From the NCBI GenBank assembly GCA_947449015.1, contig CANFQA010000002.1, forward strand, positions 77,855 through 109,943: a stretch of DNA of 32,089 bases, read 5' to 3'. The position numbers and the translations under genes are program-made. The notes under the pieces were generated by a model. It was given only the letters and a program-made list of their open reading frames with translations. It did no database searches and was not told where the DNA came from. Positions 4,170-25,823 of this stretch are shown one piece after another; position 1 is the first letter of the stretch, and each line of letters begins with the position of its first letter. This DNA is from Microthrixaceae bacterium. GTDB taxonomy: Bacteria > Actinomycetota > Acidimicrobiia > Acidimicrobiales > Acidimicrobilacustridaceae.

Positions 4170-4243
4170 GCCGGCGTGTTTGGAGCAGCACCTGTCGCGC
4201 TGCCTTGTTGGAGCGATGCCGGTTGGTTGCGATCACGCACCGG

Positions 4244-4249
4244 TACAGT
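4244..4249 (+). promoter_or_regulatory. -10-like box TACAGT of a probable leaderless promoter
   Basis: TACAGT is separated by 7 nt from the GTG at 4257, which has no Shine-Dalgarno sequence. The box supports choosing that GTG as the start of the recombinase gene. No good -35 element is seen. Confidence 0.45.
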
Positions 4250-4256
4250 TGATGCG

Positions 4257-5153
4257 GTGCCGTCCGATGATGACCCCTGGTCACTCGATGCGTTCTGTGC
4301 CTCGCTCACTTCGGTGTCGGAGGCAACCGTTCGGGCATATCGCTCGGATCTGCTCTCGTTCGTTGTCTGGTGTGAGCGCGCCGAGCTCGCTGGGCCGGCC
4401 ATGGTCACACGCACCACACTGCGTCGCTACATCGGATCCTTGGCTACCCGCTCCTACGCCCGCCGGTCGATCGCTCGCAAAGCGTCCGCGATTCGCCGCT
4501 ATTTCGGATGGTCAGTTCGCACCGGGGTCATTGCCAACGATCCATCGGTCGGCCTCAGCGCCCCAGGAGGAACAGGGCGCCTTCCCCGGGTCCTTCGCGA
4601 CGATGAGCTCACCGCAGTGCTCGATAACCCACCCGGCACAACCGCCAACGATCCTCCCGCTCTTCGCTCCCGTGACGACGCCGTGCTCGAACTGCTTTAT
4701 GGGAGTGGACTGCGTGTTTCGGAACTGTGTGGGCTTCGACCCGAGGACATTGACATTGACCGCCGTCGGATTGTCGTGTGGGGCAAAGGTTCGAAGCAGC
4801 GGGTCGTTCCGCTCAGTAGTCCTACATGCGATGCCTTGCGACAATGGCTCGGCCACGGCCGTCGCATCCTGGCCACCGCCGACTCACCGTCTGATGCGGT
4901 CTTTCTCAATCAGAAGGGTCGACGTCTCGGTCCACGTGATGTTCGTCGTCTGCTCGATCGTCGGGCACCGTCGCCCACGCATCCCCATGCGTTGCGCCAC
5001 ACCTTCGCCACTCATCTGCTCGACGGCGGCGCGGACCTCCGCGCGGTGCAGGAACTTCTCGGTCATGCCGATCTCTCCACCACACAGCACTACACGCATG
5101 TGAGTAAGCAGCGACTGCGGAGCGTTCTCGACGCCACCCATCCGCGCGCCTGA
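4257..5153 (+). CDS. xerC: Xer-type tyrosine recombinase
   Basis: From the GTG at 4257 the product is 298 residues, the usual Xer length. An N-terminal SAM-like core-binding domain (about 10-95) precedes the catalytic domain. All catalytic residues are present: Arg153 (SGLRVSELCGL), the beta-hairpin Lys in GKGSKQR, the HxxR pair His244/Arg247 (HALRH), His270 (LGHAD) and the nucleophile Tyr279 (HYTHV). XerC/XerD resolve chromosome dimers at dif sites. The locus between dprA and rpsB is the usual actinobacterial place for the gene called xerC. A longer frame begins at 4176, but its extra residues lack family similarity and would skip the TACAGT box. Assignment to XerC rather than XerD rests on synteny. 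Confidence 0.9.
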   Translation: MPSDDDPWSLDAFCASLTSVSEATVRAYRSDLLSFVVWCERAELAGPAMVTRTTLRRYIGSLATRSYARRSIARKASAIRRYFGWSVRTGVIANDPSVGLSAPGGTGRLPRVLRDDELTAVLDNPPGTTANDPPALRSRDDAVLELLYGSGLRVSELCGLRPEDIDIDRRRIVVWGKGSKQRVVPLSSPTCDALRQWLGHGRRILATADSPSDAVFLNQKGRRLGPRDVRRLLDRRAPSPTHPHALRHTFATHLLDGGADLRAVQELLGHADLSTTQHYTHVSKQRLRSVLDATHPRA

Positions 5154-5230
5154 TTCCTGCGCATCGCTTTCACTGCGCTGCTGCACTCCATCTCCTTCCC
5201 CCGGAACCTCCGACATGAAGGGGACCTGTT

Positions 5231-6910
5231 ATGCGAACGCGCCTTCGTCGCGCTGGGGCCATAGCGGTTGCAGTTGTGCTTGCAGTTGCGCTCGTCGTCA
5301 TGGTGCCGATGTCGGCTGCGGCGGTGCCGCTTGCATCACCGGCAACACCCTCAGGGTTCGTTGACTATCGGCCACCAAGCAATGCGCCCATTGTCGATCA
5401 CTTCCGTCCGCCGGCAAACCCATGGGGTGCTGGCAATCGCGGCATCGACTACGGCACCATCGAGGGCGACGAAGTCCGGGCCGCCGCCCCCGGTCGTGTG
5501 GTGTTCGCTGGCGAGGTCGGGGGCACCCTGCATGTCACGGTTGAGCACGCCGATGGCCTACGCACCAGCTATTCGTTTCTCGCTGCAGTATCGGTGGCAC
5601 GCGGCGATCGTGTTCGCAGCGGTGACATCGTTGGCACTGCTGCCGGTTCGTTTCATTTCGGCGTTCGCGCACCCGATGGCACCTATTTCGATCCTGAGGA
5701 GGTTCTTGCCGGCCGTGTGCGTCCCGAAATCGCGCTTGTCCCCGGTGCAGAAGAGGGACTCGACCCGCTCGATGCGGGGGAGCGACGGTCGCTGCTCGAC
5801 ACGTTGCGTGACTCTGGTGTGGCCCTCATGGACTACGTCGAGCGGACTGGTGTTGAGGCTGTGTCGATCGCGGCACATGCTGCACTCAGCGCGAGTAATC
5901 CGGCGCGGATTGCTCGCGCCGCTGTGGCACTGGCCCGCTGGTATCAGCAGAGTGGGTCGTGCACCCCGGCATCGACTGAGGCTCCAACAATCGACAGACG
6001 ACGTGTAGCTGTCGAGGTCAGCGGCCTTGGCACCGCGAGTGAGAGCAACTCGGCCTGGGAGTTCGACACCGCAACGATCGGGTACGCACCCACAGATGTG
6101 ATCAGGTTCTCCTACCGGGGAGGTCGCGCCCCCAACGACGGCGAGGATCAGGGCATCACAGGTGTCGCTTCCGAATCGATTCCGGTGACGACATTTTCGA
6201 GCAGCGACAGTCAGCAGTCACTGGGCGTGTCCGTTGATCGTCTTGTTGAGCTCATTGACGCCACTGCACGCGCCAATCCAGATGTGCCGATCGATGTGCT
6301 CGCTCATTCCCAAGGCGGGGTGGTGGCTCGATTGGCGATCGAGCGCGCTGCGGCAGCTGGTCAACTTCCCGCCACCGTGGCCAACCTCGTCACCGTCGGA
6401 TCCCCCCATGGAGGAGCGCCATTGGCAACTGGGGTGCGGGCGATGCAGCTCAGCCCGGCCGGCCGAATGGTGCTGGCTGAGTTGCGATCCAGCGGCGTGG
6501 CCGGTCCGCTCGATGATCGACTCCCGGCCACCACTGATCTGGCCGCAACCTCGGTGACCATGGGCGAACTGCATGATCGGCCTCTGCCTGACCAGGTCCG
6601 GTTCGTGTCTCTGGGCGGATCGGGCGATCTCATCGTCCCTGGGGTGGCCACAACGGATCCAAGCGCCGCTGACCAGCGGATCCTGCCAACCGCGATCGGC
6701 ACTGATGCCCATGGGGCCCTCACCAGCATGCCCCGCACGACTCGGGAGATTGCTCTGGCCGTTGCCGGGCGGCCACTCACCTGCCAGGGGCTGACCGAGA
6801 CGATCGGCGCGTTTCTTGAGGCGGAGGCAGTGTCCACGCTCGAGTCAGCATCCACCCTCGGTGCAGCAACCATGGCGGCCACCACTGGAGTGCCGCTGGA
6901 ACCGAGATGA
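5231..6910 (+). CDS. secreted fusion: degenerate LytM/M23-like domain plus alpha/beta hydrolase
   Basis: The 559-residue protein has a Sec signal peptide (about 1-32: basic start, long hydrophobic run, AAA before VPLA) and an AAGGGGA Shine-Dalgarno site. Residues about 60-155 follow the LytM/M23 pattern, but metal and catalytic positions are altered. HxxxD reads NRGID (Asn69, Asp73), YxH reads YSF (Phe116) and HxH reads SFH (Ser140, His142). Peptidase activity is therefore unlikely. The second half resembles a lipase/PGAP1-like hydrolase with an intact triad: Ser360 in AHSQGG, Asp466 in GDLIVP and His494 in DAHGALT. A plausible role is an envelope-located esterase with a peptidoglycan-binding or regulatory module. 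An M23 gene beside rpsB is common in actinobacteria; the fusion is the unusual part. Confidence 0.8.
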   Translation: MRTRLRRAGAIAVAVVLAVALVVMVPMSAAAVPLASPATPSGFVDYRPPSNAPIVDHFRPPANPWGAGNRGIDYGTIEGDEVRAAAPGRVVFAGEVGGTLHVTVEHADGLRTSYSFLAAVSVARGDRVRSGDIVGTAAGSFHFGVRAPDGTYFDPEEVLAGRVRPEIALVPGAEEGLDPLDAGERRSLLDTLRDSGVALMDYVERTGVEAVSIAAHAALSASNPARIARAAVALARWYQQSGSCTPASTEAPTIDRRRVAVEVSGLGTASESNSAWEFDTATIGYAPTDVIRFSYRGGRAPNDGEDQGITGVASESIPVTTFSSSDSQQSLGVSVDRLVELIDATARANPDVPIDVLAHSQGGVVARLAIERAAAAGQLPATVANLVTVGSPHGGAPLATGVRAMQLSPAGRMVLAELRSSGVAGPLDDRLPATTDLAATSVTMGELHDRPLPDQVRFVSLGGSGDLIVPGVATTDPSAADQRILPTAIGTDAHGALTSMPRTTREIALAVAGRPLTCQGLTETIGAFLEAEAVSTLESASTLGAATMAATTGVPLEPR

Positions 6911-6939
6911 TCGTTTGGCCCCCATCGCTGGCCTTCCCG

Positions 6940-6945
6940 TACACT
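6940..6945 (+). promoter_or_regulatory. candidate -10 box TACACT for rpsB
   Basis: TACACT is embedded in CGTACACTCGG, the same GTACACT core seen before rimP at 17061. A weak TTGGCC lies 19 bp upstream. If used, transcription would start near 6952 and give a leader of about 147 nt (to 7098). I see only modest pairing in that leader and no clear riboswitch or known ribosomal-protein leader. Confidence 0.45.
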
Positions 6946-7098
6946 CGGCACCCGGTTCAGTGACTGCTGGACTCCTTCCGCAGGTCAGGTCGACCCGCAC
7001 ACACCCCCGGCTCGTGCGCCCCACGGTCGGTCCCGCCATCGGGTCCGCCTGCACAACACCGGATTCTCCAACTTTCAACCGATGGGTAAGGAAAAACC

Positions 7099-8031
7099 AT
7101 GGCTCCAGTCGTAACAATGCGCCAGCTGCTCGAGGCCGGTGTCCACTTCGGACATCAGACCCGTCGCTGGAACCCCAAGATGAAGCGTTTCATTCACGGT
7201 GAGCGCAACGGCATCTACATCATTGATCTCCAGCAGACGCTCGGACGCATCGAGACCTCGTACAGCTTCGTACGCGATCTCGTCGCCGATGGCGGCACCA
7301 TTTTGTTCGTGGGCACCAAGAAGCAGGCCCAGGATCCGGTGCGTAGCTACGCCGAGCGCTGCGGCATGCCCTATGTCAACGAACGTTGGCTCGGCGGCAT
7401 GCTCACGAATTACCAGACCATGTCCAAGCGCGTGGCCAAGATGAAGGAATACCAGCGCATGCGCGACTCAGGTGAGTTCGAGGCCATGCCCAAAAAGGAA
7501 GCACTCCTCATTAGCCGTGAGCTCGAGAAGCTTGAGCGCAATCTTGGGGGCATCCGAAACATGGAACGCACCCCGAGCGCCATCTTCGTGCTTGACACCA
7601 AGAAGGAAGACATCGCGGTGACCGAGGCCAACAAGCTTGGTCTTCCGATCGTGGCCGTGGTCGACACCAATTGCGATCCCGACATCATCCAGTACGTCAT
7701 CCCCGGCAACGACGATGCCATCCGTTCGGCCAACCTCATGTGCCGCGTCATCGCCGATGCCGTCGAGGAGGGTCGCTTCATGGCTTCCCGTCGTCGTGGT
7801 GCCGCAGCCCCTGAGGGCCCGGCAGTTGTCGAGCGTACGGCCGAGGAAATCGCTGAGCATGAGGCCGCCCAGGCCGATGCCCGTCGTCAGGCTGCCGAAG
7901 CCGCCGCCGCTCGTGAGGCCCGCATCGCGGCTGAACGCGCCGCTGCAGCCGATGCCGAGCCGGTCGCTGAGGCCGTTGCCGAAGCTCCCGTTGCCGAAGC
8001 ACCTGCTGCTGAGACCACTGAGGAGGCCTGA
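7099..8031 (+). CDS. rpsB: 30S ribosomal protein S2
   Basis: The 310-residue protein opens [29 protein letters not shown], the S2 hallmark. The body shows [19 protein letters not shown] and [12 protein letters not shown], and runs to about residue 232. After that comes an unusual tail of about 78 residues very rich in Ala and Glu, probably disordered or helical. An AAGGAAA Shine-Dalgarno site precedes the ATG. tsf follows 3 bp after the stop, with its own GAGGAGG site inside the end of rpsB, as in the widespread rpsB-tsf operon. Confidence 0.98.
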
Positions 8032-24387: not shown

Positions 24388-25668
24388 TCACCAAGGTTCG
24401 TCGGGGATTTCAAAGAACTCGCTGTAGGCCCGCATCTGTTCGCGTCGGGCCCTCACGTCGATGCCGAGCTGGTCGACGTCATAGATGACCTTGCCGAACC
24501 GGTCACGCTCATGGGTGGTGCCGTACCCAATGAGCGCAGCCTCTGCAGCGGCATCCATGGATTGACCGGCAAGTTCATAGATGCGACGGATGGTTCCGAT
24601 GTCGTCGGCCATGAACTGATCGAAGCGAACATCGAGTGACTGTTCCGGGCCACCCAGCAGCGCCCGATCGCGCATCGCTGCGTTGAGCATGTCGTCGAGG
24701 CGGTCGGCCCAGTAATTGGAAATGGCAACGGGGTCGACTGGAGCAAGTGATGATCGAGCGGTATAGGACACCATGGTTCCCATCGAGACCATCACGGAGA
24801 TGGGGTCGCGATGGGTGACCAAGAACGTGGCATCGGGGAAGGTAGATGCCAAGGGTCCGAACTGCTCAAGATGCTGCGGCGACTTGAGGATCCAACGGGT
24901 GCCGCCGCGCAGGAACTGGCAGGCCTTGAGCACGGTCTTCATGTACTCATAGTGCGGAGTCTGATCGGTGGACTTGTAGAAGTCCCGCCATGTGGGCATC
25001 GGGGCCATTGTCTCGAACAGCATCGTGGAGAAGTCAATGGCGAGGAGTTGGATCTCCTCATGCACATGTGTGGTGGTCATCTCATGCATCCGCTTGAACT
25101 CGGGTGCGATGGAGTTGATCATCGTGACGCCCATTTCGCAGCGGGCGAGACGCGGGTCGTCTCCAGTACCGGCCAGCGCCGCTTCGGCTGGAACTGGGAT
25201 CGGCTCGATGCTCTCCCAATAAGGCAGCGATCGCAGGGCAGGGTCGCTCGAGATCAGGTTGTGTAGATGGGTAGTGCCGGTGCGGGGGAGCCCAGCAATG
25301 ATGATCGGCGCTTCGATCTCGATGTCGTGGATCTCGGGATGGCGGGCCAGTAGATCGGCAAGCAGAAGGCGGTTCTTCAGTAGCCCCGTGCACAGCCCGG
25401 CAGCTGAGAGCCGGCCGAGCGGGGACAGCGGCGCTTCGGTGTCCAAGCAGCGTAGGAGCAGCTCGAGTCGGCCGATGAAGTCGGAGGGTCCGAAATCCTC
25501 GAGTCCTAGCTCGGCGGAGGCTTGGGTCATCAGGGCGTCGGCGTTGAGCTCGACCATGGCCCCCATGGGTTCCACCGCCGCCAGCATTTCGTTGATTTCC
25601 GGGGTGTACCGGGGCTCCGCGAGGTCATCGAGACGGATTGGTGCTGGTCGCGAGCTGGTTTCGGACAT
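24388..25668 (-). CDS. PAPS-dependent sulfotransferase family protein
   Basis: The 426-residue protein has the sulfotransferase PAPS-binding loop [13 protein letters not shown] (PRTGTT at 128-133) and the 3'-phosphate-binding THRDP (285-289) followed by [18 protein letters not shown] between them is typical of the Sulfotransferase_3-like group. It probably transfers sulfate from PAPS to a small hydroxylated or lipid acceptor, which cannot be named. AGGGGGAA precedes the ATG at 25668; the frame continues upstream to 25773 but lacks similarity. No signal peptide is seen, so it should be cytoplasmic. It lies opposite to its neighbours and interrupts the usual ribF-rpsO neighbourhood, suggesting insertion of an accessory gene. 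Confidence 0.9.
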
Positions 25669-25696
25669 GGTTCCCCCTGCTATGCAGCCGATCCCC

Positions 25697-25723
25697 CGAT
25701 CGGCCCGTGGTCTGGGCCGATCG
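25697..25723. promoter_or_regulatory. 10-bp perfect inverted repeat, candidate operator
   Basis: CGATCGGCCC and GGGCCGATCG are perfect inverted copies separated by 7 bp, starting 29 bp upstream of the sulfotransferase ATG. The distal arm overlaps the candidate minus-strand -10 box, which is the classic place for a repressor dyad. In RNA the same arms would form a leader hairpin. Confidence 0.5.
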
Positions 25724-25725
25724 TA
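25720..25725 (-). promoter_or_regulatory. candidate -10 box TACGAT for the sulfotransferase gene
   Basis: On the minus strand TACGAT lies about 50 nt before the ATG and overlaps the distal arm of the inverted repeat. No clear -35 element. Confidence 0.3.
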
Positions 25726-25823
25726 GGTCCATACTGGGAACCAGGTTCGCGACGGCGGTGGGTCGCCACCCAAGGCTCGCTGCTTGCTGAGGTCGGGAAT
25801 GGGGGATTTCGAGACCCCCCTGC

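Follow-up and report, generated by a model that had tools for sequence, protein, structure and literature searches.

The open reading frame at positions 5231-6910 of the window (the whole 32,089-nucleotide stretch of DNA analysed here) has an ATG start and, according to the ORF list and the translation of the window, encodes a 559 aa-long protein in which a degenerate M23/LytM domain is fused to a lipase-like α/β-hydrolase. The fusion recurs among relatives, and purifying selection acts on both of its halves. On balance, we think it probable that the protein is an envelope esterase, lipase or phospholipase furnished with a non-catalytic M23/LytM module, which would hold the enzyme at the wall or tune it. 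Judging from its hydrophobic N-terminus, the protein would be exported and then seated at the wall by the LytM-like module, which has presumably lost peptidoglycan cleavage while keeping the fold and may act as a wall tether or a regulator. The α/β-hydrolase half would be the enzyme proper; it would act on a nearby surface acyl ester and most probably be an esterase, a lipase or a phospholipase. The features of the locus are as follows:

4176..5153, plus strand: xerC-type recombinase gene, conserved upstream neighbour (Pfam, ncbifam, relatives' loci)
5231..6910, plus strand: whole gene, with hydrophobic N-terminus, M23/LytM domain, linker and α/β-hydrolase (ORF, Pfam, model)
5231..5320, plus strand: hydrophobic N-terminal segment, likely export signal (aa 1-30; Kyte-Doolittle, model helix 2-28; cleavage not predicted)
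5360..5725, plus strand: degenerate M23/LytM domain (aa 44-165; Pfam 69-138, model and fold matches over about 39-167)
5435..5437, plus strand: Asn69, replacing the first metal His (Asn in 62/62 Acidimicrobiales rows; His in 23/24 rows outside)
5447..5449, plus strand: Asp73, second metal ligand position (in the order Asp 31, Glu 27, other 4, n = 62; outside Asp 24/24)
5576..5578, plus strand: Phe116, replacing the YxH His (His in 0/62 order rows and 0/24 rows outside)
5648..5650, plus strand: Ser140, replacing the first His of HxH (His in 3/62 order rows and 5/24 rows outside)
5654..5656, plus strand: His142, third metal ligand position, retained (59/62 order rows; 24/24 outside)
5726..5995, plus strand: variable, mostly helical linker (aa 166-255; model helices 182-221 and 223-241; residues 169-180 with pLDDT < 50)
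5960..5962, plus strand: Cys244, possible disulfide partner (invariant in the window protein and 59 fused loci; absent from L149, L161, L166 and L173)
5996..6802, plus strand: α/β-hydrolase domain (aa 256-524; Pfam, structure matches over 256-524)
6308..6310, plus strand: Ser360, nucleophile in AHSQGG, after strand 354-359 (61/61 rows including the query; model)
6626..6628, plus strand: Asp466, after strand 457-463 (61/61 rows; model)
6710..6712, plus strand: His494, after strand 481-485 (60/61 rows; model)
6782..6784, plus strand: Cys518, possible disulfide partner (same occurrence as Cys244)
7099..8031, plus strand: rpsB, conserved downstream neighbour (Pfam Ribosomal_S2 8.3e-99, relatives' loci)

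The first half of the protein is matched by the Pfam family Peptidase_M23 (PF01551) at aa 69-138 (E-value of 3.1e-14; 53.4 bits against a cut-off of 28.7), and the same family matches all 60 members of an alignment of the window protein with 59 of the 60 fused loci, L100 excluded. An AlphaFold2 model computed from 60 sequences (the window protein and 59 homologues) has a mean pLDDT of 86.0 and a pTM of 0.69, with both domains at about 92-93 by 10-residue blocks; the mean pLDDT of the single-sequence model is 34.7. Superposition of the M23 half on known structures yielded close matches to Csd3 (4rnz; Z 18.8, rmsd 2.0 over 116 residues), to the LytM domain of DipM (7qrl; Z 18.6, rmsd 2.0 over 117 residues) and to that of EnvC (4bh5; Z 17.2, rmsd 2.8 over 116 residues; Foldseek E-value of 2.2e-09). 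The M23-like character of this half, proposed in the preliminary description from the letters of the DNA, is thus borne out by both the Pfam and the fold matches. At its very N-terminus, the AlphaFold2 model places a helix at residues 2-28, and the best 15-mer of aa 1-30 has a mean Kyte-Doolittle value of 3.37; such a hydrophobic N-terminal stretch is found ahead of the M23 motif in each of the 80 rows compared.

For the second half, several related Pfam families of α/β-hydrolases score above their own cut-offs at once, each over a partial stretch only, within about aa 311-408: DUF7379 (4.9e-11), Palm_thioest (1.3e-07), PGAP1 (3.2e-06), DUF676 (3.6e-05) and Abhydrolase_8 (0.00013). Its fold matches lipase-type structures with Z scores of 16.4-18.8 and 13-20% identity over the aligned residues, among them a lipase (5h6b; Z 18.8, rmsd 3.5 over 215 residues), the phospholipase PlaB (6zti; Z 18.5, rmsd 3.1 over 222 residues) and palmitoyl thioesterase-2 (1pja; Z 16.4, rmsd 3.5 over 202 residues). 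A catalytic Ser, Asp and His located after strands 5, 7 and 8, respectively, is the usual order in the α/β-hydrolase fold, and in the model Ser360, Asp466 and His494 follow the strands expected of a lipase-like enzyme. That these three residues are kept, as had been noted beforehand, holds in the relatives as well: among 61 rows (the window protein and 60 fused loci from the best 80 of 193 relatives), a single one is devoid of the His, and the Ser and Asp are found in every row. When L160 and L172, two M23 rows lacking a detected hydrolase, were aligned alongside, they displayed no triad. Cys244 and Cys518 lie at either end of the hydrolase domain and may form a disulfide.

At the metal site of the M23 half, where the positions of residues 69, 73 and 142 provide the zinc ligands of LytM (His, Asp and His, respectively), the window protein has N69, D73, F116, S140 and H142. 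In the phmmer alignment to 3slu, N69 is opposite the His of HTGIDY and F116 opposite that of YAHL, and in those relatives that keep an HLH motif its first His is aligned with S140. Given N69, F116 and S140, the set of residues characteristic of an active M23 peptidase (HxxxD and HxH ligands together with the YxH His) is incomplete, which is what the preliminary description had read from the sequence. Restoring a full zinc site by realignment was considered and rejected, as the alignments offer no other His at the metal positions.

How these substitutions are distributed was surveyed in 87 distinct rows (63 from the order, 2 from the class and 22 from the phylum), identical M23 segments being counted once; one row of the order (L021) is cut by a contig end, hence the 62 in the list above. 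The 24 rows from outside the order are mostly best-scoring loci and hand-picked regions rather than a random draw of the 204 matching genomes, and the column tallies give the commonest letters only (8 per column for the 80-locus set, 10 per column for the 87-row set). Within the order, Asn occupies position 69 throughout, and we prefer this figure, which comes from protein- and profile-driven searches, to the 80/80 obtained among the best 80 of 193 relatives; the latter is partly selected, because the search patterns contained GNRG or YSFL-like motifs. Of the 24 rows from beyond the order, 23 combine an intact zinc triad (His69, Asp73, His142) with the absence of the YxH His; the remaining one (L157) has Asn in place of His69. 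A His at position 140 is seen in three rows of the order (L033, L192 and L195). The alignments therefore mark His69 to Asn as the signature of the order, while loss of the YxH His, and mostly also of the first HxH His, appears common to the phylum rows sampled. The losses are conserved at the rpsB locus, one of the questions raised at the outset, and so is the fusion. Separately, His142 is replaced and Asn69 kept in three members of the order, L146 (Tyr), L152 (Tyr) and L185/G332 (Phe); L146 and L152 (family f7) are stand-alone, and L185 comes from a full-length fused match.

The preliminary description had also placed the gene next to rpsB, and rpsB indeed begins 188 bases downstream on the same strand, with a xerC-type gene ending 77 bases upstream. 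The latter matches Pfam Phage_integrase (7.5e-45) and ncbifam XerC (1.3e-88, below that model's own cut-off). A promoter and terminator scan of positions 4900-7200 found no promoter-like site and one terminator-like site, located within the gene and equal to the level in shuffled sequence, and an Rfam search of the whole window gave no match. The arrangement is widely shared: among the best 80 of 193 relatives, rpsB lies downstream on the same strand in 70 and xerC or dprA upstream in 75, the loci without the expected neighbour being mostly at contig edges. At one of them (L097), about 6 kb of sequence downstream of the family M23 gene holds no match to rpsB or tsf. In the gap between xerC and the M23 gene, checked in L052-L131 (17 of 80 loci were not testable), a sigma-factor-like gene, which we take to be of the FliA/WhiG type, is found in 37 of the 63 testable loci (e.g., L128:5043-5807); the gap of the window (5154-5230) has no match to it. 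Elsewhere in the window, a sulfotransferase-family gene (PF13469, 4e-37) at 24388-25773 on the minus strand runs opposite to the surrounding housekeeping genes, which include nusA, infB, truB and pnp (names from Pfam matches).

A pattern search with the single window protein gave 24 pattern matches and no relative. Scanning named genomes with the M23 alignment yielded 193 relatives, and the 80 best loci among these were retained. Matches at E ≤ 0.001 are present in 38 of 41 genomes, that of the window included, a few of them (G025, G034) being weak M23-only matches. All of the best 80 loci carry the M23 domain, 60 of them have M23 and hydrolase in one frame, and the remaining 20 encode stand-alone M23 proteins, 3 of them truncated at the edge of a contig. 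Among 118 genomes drawn evenly from the order and tallied at E < 1e-30, 30 have a fused version (one match through both halves in 28, and both halves in one frame but in two pieces in G331 and G390) and 36 the M23 half only; neither half was detected in 50, one genome (G340) has a hydrolase fragment only, and in another (G035) the hydrolase is broken across frames. In the latter case (L043, about 4510-6094), the two frames meet near residue 116 of the hydrolase half, a frameshift that is either real or due to sequencing.

On a tree of rpsB and tsf with 89 rows (61 fused, 28 single), the fused/single label requires 9 changes, versus a mean of 24.0 for shuffled labels, and none of 500 shuffles was as low as 9. 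Loci in which rpsB was missing or matched over a short length are left off the tree, which is a quick one in which the long branches of the outgroup may meet. The label is clustered on this tree, with a change count that cannot separate gains from losses. Beyond the order, M23 and hydrolase Pfam matches (E ≤ 0.001) occur together in all 8 fused proteins tested (L156, L158, L159, L161, L163, L165, L166 and L173), three of which (L161, L166 and L173) are encoded at the rpsB locus. The 8-14 kb of sequence surrounding the fused genes L156-L159 and L162-L165 showed no rpsB, and these genes have His at position 69 in all but L157. The triad residues Ser, Asp and His line up in the two groups alike. 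The Cys pair is shared by the L156 group, so that a common origin with the fusion of the order is likely there, as far as sequence can tell; it is no more than possible for the L161/L166/L173 group, which is devoid of the pair and has fewer residues ahead of the His.

The 20 loci without a hydrolase in frame, among the best 80 of 193 relatives, also encode Asn69, suggesting that the role of this residue is independent of the fused hydrolase. Since such stand-alone versions exist (20 of 80 loci; 36 versus 30 genomes in the even draw), the M23 half would have a role without the hydrolase, a point against the preferred reading. It speaks for a possible but rather unlikely alternative, in which the M23 half would bind some other hydrolase of the wall and activate it in the manner of EnvC, NlpD or DipM, the fused hydrolase being accessory. 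Its fold is close to the LytM domains of EnvC and DipM, yet the genome of the window, 96.9% complete, has no match to Amidase_3 or Amidase_2, the two amidase families searched, at E ≤ 0.001. Amidase_3 is present in 18 of 41 relatives, fused ones included, but was not found in five fusion-bearing genomes that are 96-100% complete (G002, G018, G019, G023 and G024), and an Amidase_3 client is therefore not required. An amidase activator in the literal EnvC/NlpD sense, the analogy first drawn for this protein, was accordingly abandoned. The client would have to be something other than Amidase_2 or Amidase_3, for example an NlpC/P60 protein, of which the genome has four matches besides one further M23 match under the cut-off. 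The LytM domain of Caulobacter DipM is reported to interact with lytic transglycosylases and a putative carboxypeptidase in addition to an amidase (PMC10336132); as it serves several kinds of autolysin, a non-amidase client is conceivable here too.

The strength of selection on the two halves was estimated as NG86 dN/dS in 19 pairs picked by identity (0.56-0.95), each row being used once. Values range from 0.03 to 0.45 for the M23 part and from 0.08 to 0.39 for the hydrolase part, the M23 value being the lower one in 14 of 19 pairs; the weakest constraint on M23 (0.45) is that of the L107/L114 pair. In the comparison of the window protein with its nearest aligned fused row (L062), the values are 0.12 for M23 and 0.23 for the hydrolase; synonymous change is close to saturated there, as in the other distant pairs. 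Purifying selection thus acts on both parts, and the degenerate M23 half is constrained about as much as the enzyme half. In most pairs, constraint is weakest on the linker.

Such constraint on the M23 half, together with a fusion that persists across much of the order and has similar counterparts outside, would suit a latency domain in cis, with the M23 half covering the active site of the fused hydrolase until a wall peptide is bound; but the lax linker and the occurrence of the M23 half alone speak against it, and we consider this mechanism unlikely. A more far-reaching proposal, which we advance only tentatively, is that the LytM pseudo-peptidase is a wall-reading control domain acting in cis, which would couple the state of the peptidoglycan to the remodelling of membrane lipids or acylated wall polymers, with Asn69 in a new ligand pocket throughout the order. 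If true, the reach of LytM regulators would go beyond peptidoglycan hydrolases and include an enzyme of the lipase type. That the M23 half instead remains an active metallopeptidase, its metal site having the atypical composition Asn69, Asp73 and His142, is very doubtful: the invariance of Asn69 in the order, the retention of His142 in 59 of 62 rows and the presence of HLH again in three rows could be read in this way, but the YxH His is found in no row, and, of the 62 rows of the order, 27 have Glu at position 73 and 4 have neither Asp nor Glu there. Finally, the probability that the gene is decaying, or that it stems from an error of assembly or annotation, is negligible, for although G035 has its hydrolase half divided between two frames and the matched stretch holds one stop in G033, G355 and G407 (3 of the 28 full-length matches), dN/dS is well below 1 and the same fusion recurs in dozens of separately assembled genomes, on which ground assembly error was rejected. 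We thus retain the envelope esterase, lipase or phospholipase with a non-catalytic M23/LytM module as the preferred reading.

The conserved M23-hydrolase architecture has apparently been undescribed so far, in line with what was supposed at the outset: a literature search of titles and abstract beginnings in open-licence papers retrieved no description of it. A review of the M23 family counts over 1,000 domain architectures, and a term search of its main text gave 0 occurrences of 'lipase' (PMC9662197). Other members of the Actinomycetota outside the order (e.g., L174 and L175) also have an M23 gene adjoining rpsB, but, unlike the gene of the window, theirs are stand-alone and on the strand opposite to rpsB. 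Rv2891 of M. tuberculosis is another M23 gene that adjoins rpsB. One paper names Rv2891 among three M23 genes, the one studied being Rv0950c (PMC8594824).

Like EnvC, NlpD and DipM, the window protein bears a degenerate M23/LytM fold on what is probably an exported protein; unlike them, it has an α/β-hydrolase in the same chain, and, in contrast to the amidase regulators of the EnvC/NlpD type, its genome shows no Amidase_3 or Amidase_2 client. SpoIIQ, Csd1/Csd2 and Csd3, M23 proteins whether active or not, have the M23 fold in common with it, and to our knowledge none of them carries a lipase fold. Conversely, the hydrolase fold is shared with the marine Streptomyces lipase 5h6b, Candida antarctica lipase B, PlaB and palmitoyl-protein thioesterase 2, in none of which we know of an M23 domain. 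Stand-alone and fused versions at one locus, along with zinc-triad relatives outside the order, provide a ready comparison for the passage from a peptidase to a binding or regulatory module. The degenerate LytM domains described so far regulate hydrolases of peptidoglycan, in many cases amidases; that of the window protein is joined to an enzyme of the lipase type, in an organism in which no Amidase_3 or Amidase_2 gene was found and in whose order the change of His69 to Asn is fixed.
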